49,653 nucleotides of DNA. Source: Dialister succinatiphilus YIT 11850 (GTDB lineage: Bacteria > Bacillota > Negativicutes > Veillonellales > Dialisteraceae). A program made the translations under genes and the position numbers. This document shows positions 7,836 through 43,617 of the stretch, one piece after another; positions within the stretch are counted from its first letter, which is position 1; each line of letters opens with the position of its first letter. A model generated the notes under the pieces. The model saw only the letters and a list, made by a program, of their open reading frames with translations, was not told the origin of the DNA and made no database searches. The stretch is from the NCBI RefSeq assembly GCF_000242435.1, contig NZ_JH591187.1:1200192-1249844 (forward strand). Direction: 5' to 3'.

Positions 7836-8080
7836 AAAAGGGGCCGCTCCGCGGCCCGGGTTCAGAAAGGTTCAGAAGGTTCAGAGGGTGGTGTTTTCCA
7901 GTATTCCCGTAGGGGCCTGCGCCTGCGGCGCAGAGAGGCATATGGCATCCATCGGGCCTCTGGCCCTCGGTGCCAAGGGTTGTGTAGAAAGGTTGCATCG
8001 CTTCGCTCAGGAGGCGACAGCGGCTCTGCCGCTGAGGGTGGTGGATTGCCCTACGGGCGATAAGGTATATATTATGTAGT
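7836..8080. repeat. hairpin-mosaic block 2 (short, degenerate)
   Basis: GGGGCCGCTCCGCGGCCCGG is followed by several GGTTCAGA direct repeats, CCAGTATTCCCGTAGG (a degenerate anchor) and stem modules such as GCGCCTGCGGCGC and GGGCCTCTGGCCC. It ends in a GTGGATTGCCCTACGGGCGAT module. No coding sequence is supported. Confidence 0.7.
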
Positions 8081-8220
8081 TTCCTGTCCGGCTTGGAGCC
8101 GCTGCGTTTCAACTCGATAGGAAACTTTTGGGTACAGGAGATTTCTCGACTCCGCTTCGCTTCGCTCGAAATGACGGGAGCGGCATGGGGCCGCTGCGTG
8201 CCGCCTCAGCAGGAAACTTT
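8081..8220. repeat. TTTCGAG/GGAAAC repeat, copy b (inverted)
   Basis: This is the reverse orientation of copy a: GTTTCCTGTCC at the left, then GGAGATTTCTCGACTCCGC, then GCTCGAAATGACGGG, and CAGCAGGAAAC at the right. It abuts the terminator of the dtxR-like gene. Confidence 0.7.
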
Positions 8221-8274: not shown

Positions 8275-8925
8275 TTATTTCTTATCGTCTACGAAAATCC
8301 GCTGGGCTGCTTTGTAGCTCAGGGAAATGTCTCCTTTAGGTGTTTCCAGAAGGATGGGGCCTTCGTAGGGTTCTTTTTCCTTCACTTTGACTTCCATGTC
8401 AATGTCGATGCCCCGGCTCTGGAGGTAGTCCATGAGGCTGTAGTCTTCCATGATACGGCGGATGTGGGTGGTATCTCCTACTTCCAGATCAGCCAGCCGC
8501 TCGCGGGTGATTCCCAGACGGCTGCCATCTTTTCGGGGGATGGGATCGCCGTGGGGGCAGTGGGTGGGGTGGTTCAGGTAGGCTTCCAGTTTTTCAGAAA
8601 GAATGTCATTGGTCTGGTGTTCCAGTCCTTCCGCCATTTCATGGGCCTGGCTCCAGGAGAAGTGGAGGTAGTTTACCAGGAATACTTCCCACAGGGCATG
8701 GTAGCGGAGCAGGCGGCCTGCTTCTTTCCGGCCCTTTCTCGTCATCTTGCTTCCCTTGTAGGCTGTATAGTCCACATATCCCTGTTTCTGCAGTTTTGTG
8801 ATCATCTCACTCACCGAAGGAGGGGAGACCTGGAGGGTCTGCGAAAGTTCCTTATTTGTGACAATATCATGGTTTTCGCTGAGCAGATATATTGCCTTTA
8901 AATAATCTTCCTTGCCCGATGTCAT
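8275..8925 (-). CDS. DtxR/MntR-family metal-dependent repressor
   Basis: The 216-residue protein has a winged helix-turn-helix at about 1-65 (ELSQTLQVSPPSVSEMITKLQKQGYV). A dimerisation and metal-binding domain follows, with H76, E80, E99, E102 and H103 in the positions used by MntR. CPHGDPIP (123-130) and a C-terminal SH3/FeoA-like domain come next. Such proteins bind Mn(II) or Fe(II) and then repress uptake genes. A C-terminal SH3-like domain is more typical of DtxR/IdeR or longer MntR forms. The metal cannot be told from sequence. A likely target, the ZIP transporter at 40178, has a DtxR-type operator over its -10 region. AGGAG precedes the ATG. Confidence 0.9.
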   Translation of the reverse strand: MTSGKEDYLKAIYLLSENHDIVTNKELSQTLQVSPPSVSEMITKLQKQGYVDYTAYKGSKMTRKGRKEAGRLLRYHALWEVFLVNYLHFSWSQAHEMAEGLEHQTNDILSEKLEAYLNHPTHCPHGDPIPRKDGSRLGITRERLADLEVGDTTHIRRIMEDYSLMDYLQSRGIDIDMEVKVKEKEPYEGPILLETPKGDISLSYKAAQRIFVDDKK

Positions 8926-11615: not shown

Positions 11616-12189
11616 GGACACGCCTGCGGCGTGAGGGTTCAGAGGGGAAGGGTTCTTAAGATTGACCGGCCCTTGGCCGGAGGGTTCTTAAGTTTGACGG
11701 GGCCTTCAGCCCCGAGGGTTGTGGATTGCCCTGTGGGCAATGCTTATAAAATCAGCGTTACGGGATTTACTTTCAGTATCATATGGCATAGTAAGCATTC
11801 TGGTGATTAGCCGCTACGAGGCTCCCCCTTATCCGGCTGCGCCGGACTGTCCCCCATCCGGGGGACAGAATAAAACACCGCAAAACATTCTCTTCATAAG
11901 CATCTCTACAGTAAGCACGAGTTGTTGTGCCACCTCCAAGAGGAGGAAAGGTGGTGGCGTTAGCCACCAAAGGGGGAATCTCCATCACCCGCCAGGGCGG
12001 TTATCAAGGTTTTATCATAAGAGGGCGCCTTCTATAAATGTAAGGCGCCCTCCACAACCCTCAGCGGCAAAGCCGCTGTCAAACTTAAGAACCCTCGGGG
12101 CGATAGCCCCGTCAAACTTTAGAACCCTCAAGCCCCATAGGGGCTTGTCCATAAGGCGTGTCAACCTTCGGGAATACTGGAAAGCACCG
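11616..12189. repeat. hairpin-mosaic block 4 (anchor on right, next to the origin)
   Basis: It begins GGACACGCCTGCGGCGTGAGGG, then stems CCGGCCCTTGGCCGG and GGGGCCTTCAGCCCC. After a centre with TCAGCGTTACGGGATT come GGCGCCTTCTATAAATGTAAG, CAGCGGCAAAGCCGCTG and GGGGCGATAGCCCC in reverse orientation. It ends in GTCAACCTTCGGGAATAC and AAAGCACCGCC. The origin-proximal DnaA-box region starts immediately after it. Confidence 0.9.
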
Positions 12190-12448
12190 CCTTTTGAACC
12201 CTGTGAATTCCTGTGAACAGTGATTTCTACTACCCCTAGTAGGTTCAAAAGGATTTTCTCCCATTATCTTGTGAATGTACAGAAGGGGAAAGAGATGGTA
12301 AAATTAAGTTATTCACAAGATTCTTCACTTATGAACAGCTTTATTCAAAAGCTGAATTTTCCGTATTTATCGGATTTTACAGAATTTTCCGCGAAAAACT
12401 TTTTCACAGAAATTCACAGGTATTCACATATTATCCAAAGGAGATATT
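12190..12448 (+). promoter_or_regulatory. DnaA-box-rich region upstream of dnaA
   Basis: Boxes close to TTATTCACA are scattered through it: TGTGAATTC and TGTGAACAG (12200s), TTGTGAATG, an exact TTATTCACA near 12310, TTTTTCACA, AATTCACAG and TATTCACAT just before the gene. An 11-bp inverted repeat (CCTTTTGAACC at 12190-12200, GGTTCAAAAGG at 12242-12252) encloses two boxes and a CTACTA-CCCC-TAGTAG hairpin (12227-12242). The likely roles are autoregulation of dnaA and a part of the origin. AAAGGAG before ATG 12449 is the ribosome-binding site. Confidence 0.75.
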
Positions 12449-14044
12449 ATGGATTTTTTTCTGCTTTGGGAACAGGTGCTGGACTACATTAATAAAAATG
12501 ACAGCCAGTACTATCAGATGTTCTCATACAATGTATTTCCCACATCCATGACCGACACCACCCTGGTCATTACGCCCAATAAGCCTTACCTGGTGCGGTG
12601 GATCAACGGAGTGTACAGGGAAAAGCTGGAGCAGATTGTGAGCCGGATTGCGGGAAAACCGATGAAGGTGGAAGTGGCCCCGCCTCCTGATTCCACGGCT
12701 CCCTCACCGCAGATGCCGGTGCCTCCGGCACAAAAGGAAGCAGCGGCTCCCTCTCCGGCGCCTGCCGTTCCTCTGCCGGAGGATGAAGAGCCTCTTCCAA
12801 CACCGGTTCCGCAGCCCCTTCCGGAAACACCGGCAACGGACCCCTTCCCGAAGGAAGTGGCGCCGCCCGATTTCTCCAACCTCAAACCGAAAACAGCGGA
12901 CCAGGTGACTCTGCCGGATATCCGGAATTATGAAAGTCTCCACGAGCCTTCCCTTTTCGATACGCTGGGGACTACGGTGGAGACGAAGAAAAATTTCCAG
13001 CCCAATCCGGTGAACGAGGAATACACCTTTGAAACCTTCGTCCACGGCAACTGCAACGAAATCGCCTACCAGGCCGCCTATGCGGTGGCCCAGACCGCCA
13101 CCAATCCGAACCAGGCGGACCAGAAGATGAATCCTCTTTTCATCTACGGCCCGTCGGGACTGGGGAAGACCCATCTGCTTCATGCTATCTGCAACTATAT
13201 CCATACTTATAAGCCCAGCCTGTCGGTGCTCTTCGTTTCCAGCGAAACCTTCACCAACGAGCTCATCGATGCCATCCAGAACCACACCATGCCCAAGTTC
13301 CGGGCCAAGTACCGGAATCTGGATTTCCTCCTCATCGACGATGTGCAGTTCTTCGGCTCCAAGGATTCCACCAAGATGGAAATCTTCAATACCTTCAACG
13401 AGCTTTTTGATAAGAAGAAATACATCATCATGACCAGTGATCGCACGCCATCGGACATTGACAAGCTGGAGGACCGTCTGCAGAGCCGCTTTTCCAGCGG
13501 CCTGGTGGCTCCCATTTCACCGCCGGACTATGAAATCTGCTGTATCATCCTGCAGAAACGGGCGGAAAAAATGGGCATCACCCTGCCCAAGGATGTGGTG
13601 GACTACATTGCCAGCCACATCAATACCAATGTCCGTGAGCTGGAAGGGGCCTTCAACAAGCTGGTCACCTTCTCTCATATTAAAAAGGAACCTATTACCC
13701 TGTCCTTTGCCCGGGAAGCACTGAAGGACCAGATTCCCATTGAAAGCGGACAGGAGCTCACCGTAGATTTCATTATCGACACGGTATGCAAGTACTACGG
13801 CGTGAAGAAAGAAAAGCTTCTGGGAAACGGCCGCCCCAAGAGGATCGTCATTCCCCGGCAGATTGCCATGTACCTCTGCCGCAACGAGCTTCATGAATCC
13901 TATCCCACCCTCCGGGACTGCTTCAAGCGCAAGGATCATTCCACCGTCCTCTATGCCTGCGAAAGGGTAGAAAACGATATGGCCAAAGACCCCCAGACCC
14001 GGGCCGCCGTGGAAGCCATAAAGAAACTGCTTCGAAACAGGTGA
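12449..14044 (+). CDS. dnaA: chromosomal replication initiator DnaA
   Basis: DnaA binds DnaA boxes, unwinds oriC and brings in the helicase. The 531-residue protein has domain I at 1-80 and then an unusually long proline- and glutamate-rich domain II to about residue 180 (PPPDSTAPSPQMPVPPAQKE). The AAA+ domain follows, with Walker A GPSGLGKTH at 234-242 and Walker B FLLIDDVQFF. Domain IV carries the DnaA signature around FKRKDHSTVLYACE. The usual length is about 450, so the extra residues lie in the linker. Clustered boxes on both sides suggest autoregulation. It heads the dnaA-dnaN-S4-recF order. Confidence 0.98.
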   Translation: MDFFLLWEQVLDYINKNDSQYYQMFSYNVFPTSMTDTTLVITPNKPYLVRWINGVYREKLEQIVSRIAGKPMKVEVAPPPDSTAPSPQMPVPPAQKEAAAPSPAPAVPLPEDEEPLPTPVPQPLPETPATDPFPKEVAPPDFSNLKPKTADQVTLPDIRNYESLHEPSLFDTLGTTVETKKNFQPNPVNEEYTFETFVHGNCNEIAYQAAYAVAQTATNPNQADQKMNPLFIYGPSGLGKTHLLHAICNYIHTYKPSLSVLFVSSETFTNELIDAIQNHTMPKFRAKYRNLDFLLIDDVQFFGSKDSTKMEIFNTFNELFDKKKYIIMTSDRTPSDIDKLEDRLQSRFSSGLVAPISPPDYEICCIILQKRAEKMGITLPKDVVDYIASHINTNVRELEGAFNKLVTFSHIKKEPITLSFAREALKDQIPIESGQELTVDFIIDTVCKYYGVKKEKLLGNGRPKRIVIPRQIAMYLCRNELHESYPTLRDCFKRKDHSTVLYACERVENDMAKDPQTRAAVEAIKKLLRNR

Positions 14045-14364
14045 GCCATAGTGCGGCCTGTATTATATAGGAAGCACTATCACCCCTAAGTACAGCAGGA
14101 AACGTTCCTCCTGCCCCTTCTCAAATGACTGTGAATAATGGGACCAGGGGCAGGGGATATTCCTGTTAACACACTGTGAATAAAGGGGATTTCCCAAAAA
14201 GCTGTGAATTCTGTGAATAGCGAAAAAAGTTATTCACTCCTTTCTGACAAACCGGGAAATTCGAGAAAATCTGGATTTTCACAAAGTTATTCACTTTTTC
14301 ACAGCGTACTACTACTACTACTACTATCTTTTATATATCCCCGTCGTTTTTTAAAGGAGCTGCC
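14045..14364 (+). other. oriC: origin of replication oriC (dnaA-dnaN intergenic region)
   Basis: DnaA boxes of the TTATTCACA type occur on both strands: TGTGAATAA at 14130 and 14175, TGTGAATTC at 14203, TGTGAATAG at 14212, TTATTCACT at 14230 and 14287, and TTTTTCACA at 14295. The last box is followed after three bases by a DnaA-trio of six TAC and one TAT (14307-14327), then by AT-rich TCTTTTATATATCC. Boxes, trio and AT-rich segment in this order are the basal unwinding system known from Bacillus subtilis. A GCAGGA/TCCTCCTGC hairpin at 14095-14117 lies after dnaA. Confidence 0.85.
14307..14327 (+). promoter_or_regulatory. DnaA-trio array of the basal unwinding system
   Basis: Seven uninterrupted trinucleotides (six TAC, then TAT) run from the last DnaA boxes into the AT-rich unwinding segment. 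The lower strand reads TAG repeats 5'-3', the form bound by DnaA filaments on single-stranded DNA. The number and regularity of the trios are high. Confidence 0.8.
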
Positions 14365-33289: not shown

Positions 33290-33405
33290 GGCGTCATGCC
33301 GCCCCGTCATTTCGAGGGTCGGAAGCGGAGCCCCGAAATCCAGCGGCAAAAAGTTTCCTGTGGGTAAGAAGCACAGCGGTGCCCCGCCGGGGAGTAAACT
33401 TTTTA
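33290..33405. repeat. TTTCGAG/GGAAAC repeat, copy d (diverged)
   Basis: CCCCGTCATTTCGAGGGTCG, GAAGCGGAGCCCCGAAATCC and AAAAGTTTCCTGTGGGTAAG are recognisable. The last element is shared with copy e. It fills most of the 146-base gap between the first two Sel1-repeat genes. Confidence 0.6.
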
Positions 33406-35314: not shown

Positions 35315-36454
35315 ATGACGGAATTAGAAAATGCCGAAAAATTATTTCAGTCCTATAAAGTAAAAGAAGCATACCCTCTCTTCCAGAAGCTGGCAGGGGA
35401 AGGACAGAGCCGGGCCCTTTATTTTCTGGCGCTTTATGAGCAGTATCCTCTGGATGTGGTTTCTCCGGACCCCAAAGAAGCCATACGAAAAGCGCTTGAA
35501 GGCGCCCGGGCCAATGATGGGCTCTGCGGCGTTTTCTGCATGCTCCACTACGACCTGTTGAGCCATGAGGAATTCCATGAAATTATGGATGCTAAAGAAA
35601 AGTGGATAGACGCTGCTAAAAAGGAAAGCGATGTATTTGCCCTGGAAGCCCTGGGCTGCCTCAGCGTGGTGCATGGGGAAACAGCCGAAGAGGTACATAC
35701 GGGCCTTCATCTGTTGGAAGCAGCTGCCCTGCAGGGGTACTGGAAAGCCTGGAATGACCTGGGCCAGTTCCATGACCGCCATGTGAAGGATAACAATCCT
35801 CTCCTGAAACCCTATATTGACGATAAAAAAGCCATTTCCTGCTATCGGAAATCCATGGAAGCCGGCTATCCGGACAGTATGAACCGCCTGGCCTATTTCT
35901 ATTACCTGGGCGACGGTATGCCGAAGGATGAAAAGGAAGGCATTCGCCTCTTTAAGAAAGCCTTTTCCAAAGGCCACCTGAAGGCAGGCACCGCCCTGGG
36001 CATGCTCTATCTCTTTGATGAAAAAGGGGGGAGCAAAAAAGAAGGCTTCCGGTATACGAAGAAGGCGGCCGAAGGGGGAGAGCCTACTGCCATGGGCAAT
36101 CTGGCCAACTGCTACTACTATGGCAATGGCACGAAAAAAGACCGGCGCCTGGCCAAAGAATGGTATGGCAGAGCCTCCGATGCCGGCATGGACTCCTCCA
36201 CCACCCAGCTGGGAGTCATGTATCATGAAGATGGACATGATGATAAAGCCTTTGCCCTTTTCAAAGAGGCCGCAGACCGGGGATTTCCGGAAGCCATGGG
36301 CTGGCTGGCCGCCTGCTATCAGTACGGCTATGGTACAGAGGTAAACAGTCTGGCCGCTGTGCAGTGGCTGGAAAAAGCGGCCTCCCTGGGAAGCCGGGAA
36401 GCAGAACAGGCCCTGCAGTATCTCTATAACGAAATTAAAGGAATGAAATCATGA
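35315..36454 (+). CDS. Sel1-like repeat protein 3
   Basis: A 379-residue Sel1-repeat protein with motifs such as NRLAYFYYLGDGMPKDEKEG, GTALGMLYLFDEKGGSKKEG, GNLANCYYYGNGTKKDRRLA and GWLAACYQYGYGTEVNSLAA. No signal peptide is present. AACGAGGAATCAC precedes the ATG, and the only upstream DNA is mosaic block 11, so its promoter must lie in the repeat or it relies on read-through. Its stop overlaps the start of the SGNH hydrolase gene by four bases (ATGA), so the two are translationally coupled. Confidence 0.88.
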   Translation: MTELENAEKLFQSYKVKEAYPLFQKLAGEGQSRALYFLALYEQYPLDVVSPDPKEAIRKALEGARANDGLCGVFCMLHYDLLSHEEFHEIMDAKEKWIDAAKKESDVFALEALGCLSVVHGETAEEVHTGLHLLEAAALQGYWKAWNDLGQFHDRHVKDNNPLLKPYIDDKKAISCYRKSMEAGYPDSMNRLAYFYYLGDGMPKDEKEGIRLFKKAFSKGHLKAGTALGMLYLFDEKGGSKKEGFRYTKKAAEGGEPTAMGNLANCYYYGNGTKKDRRLAKEWYGRASDAGMDSSTTQLGVMYHEDGHDDKAFALFKEAADRGFPEAMGWLAACYQYGYGTEVNSLAAVQWLEKAASLGSREAEQALQYLYNEIKGMKS

Positions 36455-38186: not shown

Positions 38187-39392
38187 ATGAATTCAAAAAT
38201 CATCATTTCTACTGTACTGGCAGCTCTTCTTGCCGCAGGCACCGTGTCTGCAGAGGGGCTGCTTCATTTGTCCTGGAAGCCCGACTATGATGCCGTGAAG
38301 TATGATGTCACCTTCAGCCGCCAGGATCAAGGAAAAATGGCAGGCACCTGGAAAACCACCGCCTATATGAGCGATATGCTTCTTCCTGAAAACGGGCAGT
38401 TCAAAGACCTGCAGGAGCTGTACTGGCAGGAAAAGCCCCTTGATTTTGACGGGTACCCCATAGGAGCGGAAAGCAGCTCCCGGCCCTTGGAAAGCTCGGT
38501 GACTCCTGTTTCCAGAAACGCGCCCCTTCCCCGGCCGGACAGAAGCGGAGAAAGGGGAGGGGCTCTGCTCTATCCTGTCTATTCCTACATAGGAAATCCC
38601 GGAGCTTCCTCCTATGAAATCGAAGTCCTGTCTGCCTATCCTGAAAATACGGAAGGCACTGCCCCTTCCATGTACCATATAGGCGGCGGAGATTTCCTTT
38701 ATACCGATTTCTACGACGACACTCCCCGATTCGGCACCTGGTACTGGCGGGTGCGGGGAAAGGATGAGGAAGGAAATCCGGTGGGCCAGTGGAGCCTTCC
38801 CCAGAAGCGGCAGTTTTCTACGGAAGGCTATACCATCGGCCTCTTTGGCGACAGCATTACCCATGGCGGCGGCCGCATGTCCTATGGCCCCAATGACTTG
38901 GAATACAGCTATGGCCACTATCTGGACTTTGACACCATCAATCTGGGGGATTCAGGAAATACGAGCCATGACATGGTGGAGCGCTTCGACCGGGACGTCC
39001 TTCCCTTTCATCTGAAATACCTCCTCATTTTGGGCGGCAGCAACAGCCTCCGCGGCGGCGTGCCGGCGGAAGAGGTCATTCGTGATTTGCAGGAAATCCA
39101 GCAGAAGTGCAGAGACCATGGCATTGTGCCCATCCTTCTCACCCTGCCGCCCATCAATCCGTCCAGCATAGATAAAGTCTTTCACGAACCGACAGCAGAA
39201 GGCTGGGAAGAAGCCTTCCGAAAGGTTAATGCATTCATCCGCACCCAGCCCCATATCGACACGGCAGCGGCCTTCCTCTACGATAACCTGATGCCGGAAC
39301 ACCTGGCTCTGGACGGCCTCCACGGCGACGTGGAAGCCAAAAAGAGGATGGCAGATATGATTAACCGGCATATAGGGGAATTTGTGAAATAA
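38187..39392 (+). CDS. exported SGNH/GDSL hydrolase 2
   Basis: A 401-residue paralogue of the preceding hydrolase with a signal peptide (about 1-22, ending GTVSA). One diverged and one clear fibronectin-like domain (YPVYSYIGNPGASSYEIEVL, WYWRVRGKDEEGNPVG) come before the SGNH domain from about 217. Catalytic residues are present: S223 in GDSITHGGG, N286 in GGSNSLR, and D376 and H379 in DGLH. The usual Asp after the block III Asn is Ser here. AATGGAG lies before the ATG, directly after a parS site, so ParB binding could affect its expression. Confidence 0.87.
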   Translation: MNSKIIISTVLAALLAAGTVSAEGLLHLSWKPDYDAVKYDVTFSRQDQGKMAGTWKTTAYMSDMLLPENGQFKDLQELYWQEKPLDFDGYPIGAESSSRPLESSVTPVSRNAPLPRPDRSGERGGALLYPVYSYIGNPGASSYEIEVLSAYPENTEGTAPSMYHIGGGDFLYTDFYDDTPRFGTWYWRVRGKDEEGNPVGQWSLPQKRQFSTEGYTIGLFGDSITHGGGRMSYGPNDLEYSYGHYLDFDTINLGDSGNTSHDMVERFDRDVLPFHLKYLLILGGSNSLRGGVPAEEVIRDLQEIQQKCRDHGIVPILLTLPPINPSSIDKVFHEPTAEGWEEAFRKVNAFIRTQPHIDTAAAFLYDNLMPEHLALDGLHGDVEAKKRMADMINRHIGEFVK

Positions 39393-39619: not shown

Positions 39620-39880
39620 AGGTAAGTGGAGAGTAAAGTCCCCCCACCGGGGGGAAGGTGGTGCGCAGCACCAAAAGGGGTGCATTTCCAACGGGCGTAG
39701 CCCGGTTGTACGGTTTTTACTGCCGCCGATAGGCGGCATATAAAACTCATCGCCCGTAGGGCGATACCACAACCCTCGGCCCGAAGGGCCGTCAAACTTA
39801 AGAACCCTCCGGCCGCAGGCCGGTCCATCTTAAGAACCCTCACACCGCAGGCGTGTCCAAAGGCCGCGAAGCGGCCCTTT
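39620..39880. repeat. hairpin-mosaic block 13 (right half only)
   Basis: After GGTGGTGCGCAGCACC comes a CATCGCCCGTAGGGCGAT hairpin, then inverted right-arm modules (stems CGGCCCGAAGGGCCG and CCGGCCGCAGGCCGG) and the terminal CTCACACCGCAGGCGTGTCC. A GGCCGCGAAGCGGCC hairpin follows and leads straight into the DnaA-box cluster. Confidence 0.8.
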
Positions 39881-39884
39881 TAAG

Positions 39885-40015
39885 TTATCCACATTTTGTT
39901 CAAAACTCTGTGAATTCCTGTAGAAATTCACAGGAAAAAAGTTCTGAATTACCGATTTTATCGACAAAGTTAGTCACAGAGATTCACAACAGAGTTATTC
40001 ACAATCTGTGAATAT
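39885..40015. promoter_or_regulatory. distal DnaA-box cluster
   Basis: Within 131 bases there are a perfect TTATCCACA (39885-39893), a CTGTGAATT/AATTCACAG inverted pair (39908-39934), TTAGTCACA (39970), GATTCACAA (39981), TTATTCACA (39995-40003) and TGTGAATAT (40007). Density and box type match the two clusters around dnaA. No gene is present. It may titrate DnaA, regulate the ZIP gene, or be a piece of a second origin-like unit. The role is inferred. Confidence 0.7.
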
Positions 40016-40024
40016 GTAGTGAAT

Positions 40025-40097
40025 GGAAAGTTTTCTGTCGAAAAGTTTCCTGTGGGTAAGAAACGCCATGTGAACTAAGCCGGACAGGAAACCTCAA
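40025..40097. repeat. TTTCGAG/GGAAAC repeat, copy e (partial)
   Basis: It retains AAAAGTTTCCTGTGGGTAAG, as in copy d, and GCCGGACAGGAAACCTC, as at the right end of copies a and c. The TTTCGAG core is missing. Confidence 0.55.
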
Positions 40098-40107
40098 AGA
40101 AACCATA

Positions 40108-40144
40108 TTGACAAATACTCTCAGTTAGCCTATTGTTAGGATAA
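40108..40144 (+). promoter_or_regulatory. ZIP promoter with DtxR/MntR-type operator
   Basis: TTGACA (40108-40113) is spaced 17 bases from TATTGT (40131-40136). An inverted repeat TTAGCCTA-TTGT-TAGGATAA (40125-40144), with seven of eight bases matching per arm, covers the -10. It resembles DtxR-family operators. A metal-loaded repressor there would block transcription of the transporter. Confidence 0.65.
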
Positions 40145-40177: not shown

Positions 40178-40960
40178 ATGAATATGGATATTTTCTGGGG
40201 ACTCTTTATCCCCTTTCTGGGCACCTCTCTGGGGGCGGCCTGTGTGTTTTTTATGCGGGGAGAAATGCATCGCGGCGTGCAGCGGGGGCTCACAGGTTTT
40301 GCTTCCGGCGTCATGGTGGCAGCCTCCATCTGGAGTCTTCTCATTCCGGCCATTGAGGAATCGTCGGACTGGGGGAAGCTGGCTTTTCTGCCTGCAGTGA
40401 TTGGATTTGGCGGAGGCATTCTTTTTCTGCTTTTCCTGGATCACATCATTCCCCATCTTCATATGGGGGCGGAAAGGGCAGAAGGGCCCAGGAGTCATCT
40501 GGCCCGCACCACTATGCTGGTACTGGCAGTGACGCTCCATAATATTCCGGAAGGTATGGCCGTGGGGGTGGTGCTGGCAGGCTTCCTGTCAGGCCACGGG
40601 GATATTACCTATGCATCAGCCATGGCTCTTTCCATCGGCATTGCCATTCAGAATTTCCCGGAAGGGGCCATTATTTCCATGCCTCTTCGGGGCGCTGGTA
40701 TGGGAAAGATGAAATCCTTCGTCGGCGGTATGCTGTCAGGGGCGGTGGAACCAGTAGGCGGTATGCTCACCATTCTCCTCACGTCACTGGTGGTGCCTCT
40801 TATGCCCTATCTTCTTTCCTTTGCGGCAGGCGCCATGATGTATGTGGTGGTGGAAGAGCTGATTCCTGAAATGTCGGAAGGAGAGCATTCCGATATAGGT
40901 GTCCTCACCTTCGCCCTGGGCTTCATGGTGATGATGACATTGGATGTGGCCCTGGGATAG
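40178..40960 (+). CDS. ZIP-family divalent metal transporter
   Basis: The 260-residue inner-membrane protein has eight predicted helices. The ZIP metal site is complete: LHNIPEGMAVG on helix IV (HNIPEG at 121-126), QNFPEGA on helix V (158-163), and a histidine-containing loop (DHIIPHLHMG). ZIP proteins import zinc, manganese or iron; ZupT and GufA are relatives. The operator over its promoter suggests repression by the DtxR/MntR-like regulator, which points to manganese or iron, though zinc is not excluded. AAAGGAGAACATA precedes the ATG. It appears monocistronic. Confidence 0.93.
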   Translation: MNMDIFWGLFIPFLGTSLGAACVFFMRGEMHRGVQRGLTGFASGVMVAASIWSLLIPAIEESSDWGKLAFLPAVIGFGGGILFLLFLDHIIPHLHMGAERAEGPRSHLARTTMLVLAVTLHNIPEGMAVGVVLAGFLSGHGDITYASAMALSIGIAIQNFPEGAIISMPLRGAGMGKMKSFVGGMLSGAVEPVGGMLTILLTSLVVPLMPYLLSFAAGAMMYVVVEELIPEMSEGEHSDIGVLTFALGFMVMMTLDVALG

Positions 40961-41337: not shown

Positions 41338-41500
41338 AACATATGGGAGAAAGCCGTAAGGCTTACCGAAGGAGTGACACTCTCAGGTATCTGAAAAGAT
41401 GAGTACCGTATGCGGACACACTCTGGAGAGTCTCGATTAAAGAGCGCCGAAGGTGTAAGGATGGCAGCATCCCAATCTCTCAGGCAAAAGGACAGAGAAA
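41338..41500 (+). ncRNA. tandem glycine riboswitch 1
   Basis: Two consecutive aptamers are visible by the conserved cores. The first has GGGAGA, ACCGAAGGAGTGA and CTCTCAGGTA. The second has CTGGAGAGTCTC, GCGCCGAAGGTGTAA, ATCTCTCAGGCAAAAGGACA. This is the classic cooperative arrangement. It sits ahead of an intrinsic terminator and an alanine/glycine:cation symporter gene. Glycine would control termination. Confidence 0.95.
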
Positions 41501-41539
41501 GCAGCGTCACACTATGTGTTCCGCTTTAAGGTAGACAAT

Positions 41540-41583
41540 GCCGGCTTCCAGAGTTTTATTTTTCATGGAAAGCCGGCTTTTTT
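41540..41583 (+). terminator. riboswitch 1 expression-platform terminator
   Basis: GCCGGCTTCCA pairs with TGGAAAGCCGGC around an AT-rich loop and runs into six T. It lies between the riboswitch and the symporter gene, as expected for regulated attenuation. Confidence 0.88.
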
Positions 41584-41617
41584 GTATCTATCTTATGATC
41601 TGGAGGGCGTTGTTAAA

Positions 41618-43042
41618 ATGGATTTGAATTACATGAATGTGTTGAATTCGCTGGATAGTTTTATCTGGGGGCCGCCGCTGCTGGTTCTTCTTGTAGGAAC
41701 CGGTATCCTGCTCACCATCAGACTGAAGCTGCTGCAGGTATTCAAATTACCGAAGGCACTGAAGCTGATTTTCAAAGCACAGAATGCAGGCAGTGGTGAT
41801 ATTGATTCTTTCAAGGCTCTCTGCACAGCCCTTTCTGCCACAGTAGGTACCGGCAACATTGTAGGCGTGGCAACAGCCATCGCAGCCGGCGGCCCGGGCG
41901 CCATTTTCTGGATGTGGCTTGCCGCATTCTTCGGAATGGCTACCAAGTATGCAGAAGGTCTTCTGGCCGTCAAGTACCGCGAAGTAGATGCCAAAGGTGA
42001 AATCGCCGGCGGCCCTATGTTCTACATTAAAAACGGTATGGGCGAGAAGTACAAGTGGCTGGGCACCCTCTTCGCCATCTTCGGCGTTCTGGTAGCCTAT
42101 TTCGGAATCGGTACTTTTGCTCAGGTGAATTCCATTGTGGATATCACCCGGATGACTATCGGATTGGATCCCATGTGGACAGCCGTGATTCTCACGGTTC
42201 TGGTAGCAGCCATTACTCTTGGCGGACTCCAGTCCATCGCCGCAGCCGCTTCCAAAATCGTTCCGGCTATGGCAGTGATTTACTTCATTTCAACCATTGG
42301 TGTATTGATTTTCTTCGCTGATAAGATTCCTGGCGCTGTGGAAACTATTATTTCCAACGCATTTACAGGCAGTGCAGCAGCTGGCGGTTTCCTTGGTTCT
42401 ACCATGATCATGGCTATGAGAAATGGTATCGCCAGAGGCGTATTCTCCAATGAATCTGGCCTGGGCTCTGCTCCTATCGTAGCAGCCGCTGCTAAAACCA
42501 AATGGCCTGCCGAACAGGGACTTATTTCTATGACCGGTACCTTCATTGATACCATTATCATCTGCACACTGACCGGTCTTACCATCGTCGTTTCCGGTGA
42601 ATGGCTGAACGGCCTGAACGGTGCAGCCCTGACCAATGCCGCATTCAAAGATGCATTCCCCGCTTTTGGCGGCTACATGCTCATGATCGGCCTGGTACTC
42701 TTCGCTTTCACCACCATCCTTGGATGGAACTACTACGGCGAACGCTGCATGATTTACCTGGCTGGTACCAAAGGAGTTCTTCCTTACCGTATCATCTTTA
42801 TCGCACTGGTTGCGAGCGGCGCATTTTTGAAACTTGAAGCCATCTGGGTTCTGGCAGATATTGTCAATGGACTCATGGCTATTCCTAACCTGATTGCCCT
42901 GTTGGCCCTGTCCGGCGTGGTGGTAAGAGAAACTGCCAAGTATTTCGACCACCTGAAGACAGGCAAGGACTACGAAGAATACGTAGACCAGGACCCCAGC
43001 AAGGAAGTAAAGGCCAAAATTTCCGCCAATGCGGAAGACTGA
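41618..43042 (+). CDS. alanine/glycine:sodium symporter (AGCS) 1
   Basis: A 474-residue inner-membrane transporter of the AGCS family (AgcS/DagA/AlsT). The signature ATVGTGNIVGVATAIAAGGP is followed by AIFWMWLAAFFGMATKYAEG; ARGVFSNESGLGSAPIVAAA and FAFTTILGWNYYGERC further identify it. It imports alanine or glycine with sodium. The glycine riboswitch upstream points to glycine, which may be a fuel or a toxic excess. ATG 41618 with CTGGAGGGCG upstream is chosen; a longer frame from 41516 would run through the terminator hairpin. It is about half identical by eye to the next symporter. Confidence 0.95.
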   Translation: MDLNYMNVLNSLDSFIWGPPLLVLLVGTGILLTIRLKLLQVFKLPKALKLIFKAQNAGSGDIDSFKALCTALSATVGTGNIVGVATAIAAGGPGAIFWMWLAAFFGMATKYAEGLLAVKYREVDAKGEIAGGPMFYIKNGMGEKYKWLGTLFAIFGVLVAYFGIGTFAQVNSIVDITRMTIGLDPMWTAVILTVLVAAITLGGLQSIAAAASKIVPAMAVIYFISTIGVLIFFADKIPGAVETIISNAFTGSAAAGGFLGSTMIMAMRNGIARGVFSNESGLGSAPIVAAAAKTKWPAEQGLISMTGTFIDTIIICTLTGLTIVVSGEWLNGLNGAALTNAAFKDAFPAFGGYMLMIGLVLFAFTTILGWNYYGERCMIYLAGTKGVLPYRIIFIALVASGAFLKLEAIWVLADIVNGLMAIPNLIALLALSGVVVRETAKYFDHLKTGKDYEEYVDQDPSKEVKAKISANAED

Positions 43043-43399: not shown

Positions 43400-43570
43400 G
43401 AAAAATGAGAGGTTCAAAGCCCCTCTGCCGAAGGAGTAATACTATCAGGCGTTCAGAAGAACACGAAACTGTGTACGGACACAACTCTGGAGAGTCCCAT
43501 TCGATTGGGCGCCGAAGGTGTAAAGGGATTTCACCCGTAAATCCCGAATCTCTCAGGCAAAAGGACAGGG
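43400..43570 (+). ncRNA. tandem glycine riboswitch 2
   Basis: The first aptamer shows ATGAGAGG, CTGCCGAAGGAGTAA and CTATCAGGC, one base off the usual CTCTCAGGC. The second shows CTCTGGAGAGTCCC, GCGCCGAAGGTGTAAA and ATCTCTCAGGCAAAAGGACA. It precedes a terminator and the second symporter gene. It is related to riboswitch 1 but diverged in stems and loops. Confidence 0.94.
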
Positions 43571-43617
43571 CTGGCAGCCGGGTAACTCCCGCTATGCATG
43601 GATGCATACATACATAT

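Follow-up and report, generated by a model that had tools for sequence, protein, structure and literature searches.

A DnaA-box cluster near the origin of Dialister succinatiphilus is conserved across genera and probably serves the control of replication timing

DnaA is the protein that starts chromosome copying, and its binding sites outside the origin have been worked out in Escherichia coli (datA, DARS) and partly in Bacillus subtilis; Dialister represents a third lineage. For both B. subtilis and E. coli, there is published evidence that box clusters outside the origin control initiation (PMC5295017, PMC13220808, PMC5742627). B. subtilis was described to contain six off-origin DnaA-box clusters, and the removal of all six led to early initiation (PMC5295017, PMC13220808). 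Titration of DnaA by these clusters has been proposed for B. subtilis, which is said to contain neither datA nor DARS and in which the regulators of the nucleotide state of DnaA are unknown (PMC13220808). In E. coli, DARS1 and DARS2 share one core at two chromosomal loci (PMC5742627), in which box I points against boxes II and III, the spacing is equal at both loci, and boxes I and II permit head-to-head contact (PMC5742627, PMC8682772). DARS1 was found to work in vitro without added factors (PMC5742627), and the DARS2 core was described as a feature that only E. coli and related gamma-proteobacteria have (PMC4245941).

The window, that is the whole stretch of 49,653 nucleotides of the gut bacterium D. 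succinatiphilus analysed here, was found to contain a DnaA-box cluster of 131 bp at 39885-40015 (locus A). Under the rule TTWTNCACA with at most one mismatch, the cluster contained six boxes, of which two were perfect and the other four deviated at one position, and three sites with two mismatches were interspersed among them (39909 on the minus strand, 39924 and 39980 on the plus strand), so that the box cluster claimed by the preliminary description is real. Two boxes were counted as a facing pair when the first was forward and the second reverse, with a step of 11-15 bp between them. The locus consists of two modules about 40 bp apart, each with a facing box pair at a step of 12 or 13 bp. 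Module 1 (39885..39917, plus strand) was found to be a three-box core in the layout -> 12 <- 12 <-, with the perfect box I at 39885 on the plus strand (TTATCCACA), the one-mismatch box II at 39897 on the minus strand (TTTTGAACA, also given as TGTTCAAAA) and the two-mismatch box III at 39909 on the minus strand (GAATTCACA, also given as TGTGAATTC). The spacer (39924..39966, plus strand) contained a weak two-mismatch box at 39924 (AAATTCACA) and a one-mismatch box at 39958 (TTATCGACA), both on the plus strand, and its TATYGACAAAG piece was retained in the relative G003. Module 2 (39970..40015, plus strand) contained four boxes, at 39970 (TTAGTCACA, plus strand, one mismatch), 39980 (AGATTCACA, plus strand, two mismatches), 39995 (TTATTCACA, plus strand, perfect) and 40007 (ATATTCACA, also given as TGTGAATAT, minus strand, one mismatch), with the second facing pair at a step of 12 bp. 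The profile R1 matched module 1 at 39882-39919 with 36.8 bits, this sequence being itself part of the model, and module 2 at 39989-40014 with 22 bits.

The origin of the same genome lies in the same window. The upstream half of oriC (12309..12439, plus strand) was found to contain seven boxes in one common orientation, followed by dnaA (12449..14044, plus strand; TIGR00362, 470.8 bits) and by the dnaA-dnaN half (14130..14329, plus strand) with six boxes and a trio-like array; dnaA and dnaN were identified by NCBIfam. The TAG repeats of this half were located on the minus strand near 14309-14327, and the trio-like run of oriC is TAGTAGTAGTAGTAGTAG. By the skew of the sampled contig, the terminus is at about C1:630 kb, and the origin is close to the dnaA end. 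With six boxes in the cluster against seven and six in the two oriC halves under the same rule, a density equal to oriC was a fair description. Short G+C-rich hairpin series, e.g. CGGCCCGAAGGGCCG and GGCCGCGAAGCGGCC, were observed at 39640-39880 and 12100-12180, preceding both the cluster and the upstream half of oriC with common text like TCAAACTT-AGAACCCTC; these hairpins seem to form a family of dispersed repeats.

A second locus with the same core in reverse orientation (locus D) was found on contig C4 at 110 kb (L048, 7022-7141), 3′ of an ammonium-transporter/P-II fusion gene (PF00909 and PF00543). It was kept beside the same fusion gene in G003 and G005 and beside other genes in G004, a complete genome in which it lies 208 kb from dnaA. 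The four D loci (L048, L097, L100 and, at 8058-8187, L098) were found to contain the three-box core and a further facing pair with a 15-bp step. The cores of loci A and D were aligned over 39 columns, 20 of them invariant, with the consensus RRGTTATCAACAnnnTGTGRATAAnnnTGTGA and one box facing two. Box I of the core contained a non-consensus A in most members; the I-II step was 13 bp in G003 and 12 bp otherwise, and the II-III step was 12 bp. Facing pairs were found 11 times at locus A, in eight of ten genomes, and at least twice in each of the four D loci, against none in the 20 oriC halves of ten family genomes, where the boxes were largely in same-direction runs. Same-direction boxes are expected for head-to-tail DnaA filaments; judged by box order, the off-origin loci are laid out as would suit facing DnaA molecules. 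The DnaA-cluster part of the preliminary reading stood, and the facing layout, the second locus and the resemblance to DARS had been missed in it.

A BLAST search of 186 bp of the cluster against 30 relatives gave short and weak matches, partly to a dispersed repeat and to coding sequence, and synteny and box layout were therefore used for the comparison of the locus. The gene order in the 2.5-Mb assembly of D. succinatiphilus (G000) was found to be a Sel1-repeat protein (35315..36454, plus strand; PF08238), relatives of which adjoin the locus in other genera, two GDSL hydrolases, of which the one upstream of the cluster is a GDSL/SGNH hydrolase (38187..39392, plus strand; PF13472), the cluster, a ZIP gene and two agcS genes, the first of which (41516..43042, plus strand) encodes an amino-acid carrier, contains a glycine riboswitch at its 5′ side and is a recurrent neighbour of the locus. 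In Dialister and two sister genera, this Sel1/GDSL-agcS neighbourhood was found to contain a DnaA-box core, 13-89 kb from dnaA. In G003 and G004, the cluster was found after the 3′ end of the GDSL gene, between it and an inverted ZIP gene. In the sister genus g4 (G008 and G010), the core, with a perfect facing pair TTATCAACATnTTGTGGATAA, lies between the Sel1 gene and agcS with no ZIP or GDSL gene between them. The core was directly 3′ of the Sel1 gene in G006 and G002, 2.3 kb 5′ of agcS in G001, and immediately 5′ of agcS in G011, where the contig ends nearby. The distance from the locus to dnaA was about 26 kb in G000, 31 kb in G004, 16 kb in G008, 13 kb in G010, 14 kb in G001 and 89 kb in G002, and in G006 the locus lies 61 kb from dnaA on its opposite side. 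The loci of G001 and G002 were not used to build the profile, which detected them at E 2.4e-6 and 3.1e-7, respectively. G009 carries its core on a short contig, and the assembly of G007 is incomplete. In G005, which by DnaA is the nearest congener, the locus was not found; the agcS contig there begins 646 bp ahead of agcS, so the absence may reflect an assembly gap.

At locus A, identical columns made up 50 of 72 inside boxes and 12 of 59 outside in the alignment of G000, G003 and G004; at locus D, conserved columns made up 53 of 89 inside and 32 of 145 outside, a statistic that is partly circular, as the boxes help to anchor the alignments, and the steps between boxes were also kept. The cluster was kept in synteny across at least three genera while the adjacent genes change, and by this comparison the locus is conserved independently of its neighbours.

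The cluster is likely to be a conserved, gene-independent, origin-proximal DnaA-binding locus that helps to time the initiation of replication, and it is probably a replication-timing control site rather than a switch for the adjacent metal-transporter gene. Several DnaA molecules would bind the locus, which, being near oriC, would be doubled soon after initiation and would draw DnaA off oriC; with DnaA drawn away, the chance of a second start would be lowered. It is less certain that DnaA molecules come into head-to-head contact on the facing boxes, in the manner of E. coli DARS, with a change of the bound nucleotide as the result. Titration is favoured because it needs only binding and because the place near oriC suits it. 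The suggestion that the cluster is a non-origin site that titrates or controls DnaA was well supported by its presence in at least three genera, by conserved bases that fall on the boxes and by the absence of a trio. Against this explanation, the distance between the locus and dnaA varies (13-89 kb), and against titration, the locus of g4, G001 and G002 was found to be a single three-box core only, which offers fewer sites than would be expected of a strong titrator. Like the B. subtilis clusters, these are intergenic DnaA-box clusters outside oriC in a Bacillota chromosome; unlike them, when compared by description, the Dialister facing core is common to two loci and kept across genera. A likeness was also found with E. 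coli datA, a non-coding off-origin DnaA-box cluster, but datA requires an IHF site and the D. succinatiphilus genome was found to contain one HU/IHF-family gene, of the HU type, with no IHF gene pair seen.

The facing layout is also what a DARS-like reactivator would use, on which ADP-DnaA would assemble head-to-head, shed ADP and leave to bind ATP, promoting initiation, with loci A and D as the counterparts of DARS1 and DARS2; this is possible, but we regard it as doubtful. The same box rule was applied to two E. coli regions, bioD-uvrB (intergenic, DARS1) and rppH-mutH (taken as DARS2); each was found to contain exactly one low-mismatch -> <- <- triple, with steps of 14 and 12 bp, in agreement with the box directions and the equal spacing described for the two sites (PMC5742627, PMC8682772). 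The Dialister core resembles these in having box I opposed to boxes II and III at both loci, in the II-III step of 12 bp and in the sharing of one core by two loci, as in E. coli (PMC5742627), and the absence of the facing layout from the family oriC agrees with such a role. The I-II step, however, is 12 bp (13 bp in G003) and not 14 bp, a difference of 2 bp; the DARS2 core has been described as specific to E. coli-related gamma-proteobacteria (PMC4245941); DARS2-type activity calls for IHF (and Fis) sites, and the Dialister locus, which lies 13-89 kb from dnaA, occurs in a genome in which no IHF pair was seen; and the same core stands beside dnaA in Paenibacillus and Neobacillus. Since the defining step of 14 bp was not found, the locus was classed, on its sequence, as a variant off-origin DnaA-box locus and not as DARS. 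We would suggest only tentatively that the Dialisteraceae, in which YabA was not found and an IHF pair was not seen, carry two DARS-like loci, A near oriC and D about 200 kb away, at which facing DnaA molecules exchange nucleotide. If true, this would be DNA-site control of the nucleotide state of DnaA outside gamma-proteobacteria, with another box spacing and no IHF. The locus offers a small testable element either for DNA-catalysed nucleotide exchange of DnaA beyond gamma-proteobacteria or for plain titration by a facing core.

The core of Paenibacillus and Neobacillus was found in a scan of genome contigs just upstream of dnaA, with the same three-box consensus in the upstream half of their oriC, and the layout is therefore not proof of DARS function. 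There the core is beside dnaA, whereas in the Dialisteraceae it is off-origin and their own oriC contains no facing pair; the facing core is possibly an ancient module for DnaA that some Bacillales use at the origin and the Dialisteraceae away from it. The same core was also observed in intergenic positions in rumen proteobacterial MAGs (L134, L140 and L144) and in a Clostridium sp. MAG (L145), beside type II secretion, SecD/SecF or ThiF/acetyltransferase genes, and no dnaA was found within these four loci.

The match to the region just upstream of dnaA in these Bacillales, together with a box density on a par with oriC, would also be expected if the cluster were a displaced half of a bipartite oriC or a secondary origin, which is quite improbable. 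Dialister retains box arrays on both sides of dnaA, and no trio-like run beyond two TA(A/G) units was found at locus A or D, against six units at the oriC of G000, in support of the earlier view that a site with no trio is probably not an origin. The cumulative GC skew of the window is lowest near 18 kb and does not turn at 40 kb, and the core recurs at a second locus, which in G004 is 208 kb from dnaA.

Regulation of the ZIP gene by DnaA, as a repressor or an activator bound at the cluster, is very unlikely. The gene (40178..40960, plus strand) encodes a ZIP-family, ZupT-like metal transporter (NF003243, E 2.8e-33, under the curated cut-off). DnaA acts as a transcription factor elsewhere, and the -35 element of the ZIP promoter (TTGACA at 40108) was measured 92 bp beyond the last box in the D. 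succinatiphilus genome, close to the 100 bp first estimated. The proposed regulation was left unsupported among the relatives, as ZIP is inverted in G003 and G004, where the cluster lies at its 3′ end, and was not found in six relatives that contain the core (G001, G002, G006, G008, G010 and G011). This presence, inversion or absence of ZIP argues against its regulation by the cluster, and a copy of an imperfect-palindrome interspersed repeat (40036..40100, plus strand) sits between the cluster and the ZIP promoter. On gene order, the ZIP gene is not part of the conserved locus, and a role of the locus in DnaA and replication control, not in ZIP control, is well supported by synteny and box conservation. 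A DtxR/IdeR-type regulator would be more likely than DnaA to regulate ZIP, and a DtxR/IdeR-FeoA regulator gene was found at 8275-8925 on the minus strand. An imperfect dyad resembling a DtxR-type operator (TTAGCCTATTGTTAGGATAA) was observed at 40120-40140 in the window, overlapping the presumed -10 element of ZIP. The interspersed repeat (GTTTCCTGTGGGTAAGAAAC ... CAGGAAAC), which is intergenic, was also observed at 33353-33372, C4:93463, C2:127099, C2:165669 and other places, partly in tandem, and ten of ten genome matches to its left end were on the plus strand of the contigs. Two glycine riboswitch aptamers were observed at 41413-41505 and 43477-43578, one for each agcS gene, the second of which overlaps the first-start ORF of its agcS, so that the true start is probably downstream.

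In 5,000 dinucleotide-shuffled versions of the intergenic stretch, six boxes never occurred, the maximum being four, and 100 shuffles of the whole window gave a maximum of five boxes, once. The cluster stands out in a scan of box density elsewhere in the genome, as the 3,040 tiles of 131 bp in a 400-kb sample of the same genome included one with five boxes, one with four and none higher. The perfect boxes TTATCCACA and TTATTCACA were found 40 and 23 times genome-wide, respectively, and the cluster is among the few places of the genome with two perfect boxes inside 131 bp. The idea that a frequent word has clustered by chance in A+T-rich intergenic DNA has a negligible probability and, as a sole explanation, is on this comparison already refuted by conservation, since the place, order and steps of the boxes are kept across genera and no local shuffle reached the cluster density, although near-boxes are frequent (128 with at most one mismatch in the window against 67 in shuffles). 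The other perfect TTATCCACA sites were considered as clusters and not counted, being mostly coding-looking with a strand bias that tracks the replichores. The five-box tiles L022 and L026 were low-GC or terminator-like places without known conservation.

Profile matches near dnaA in the family f4 were considered as off-origin loci and rejected, as they are oriC. In g7/f4 relatives (L113, L114, L115, L117, L118, L119 and L122), a seven-box array in one direction was observed with steps of 12, 21, 21, 21, 21 and 12 bp, located 208-328 kb from oriC in one-contig genomes. This array lies in frame within an RNA pseudouridine synthase gene (PF00849; e.g. L117:1195-2313, minus strand), in which the matched domain exceeds the length of the PF00849 profile by about 42 residues. 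The boxes are largely kept between species while the intervening codons vary, and the array may be a DnaA-binding locus hidden in coding sequence.
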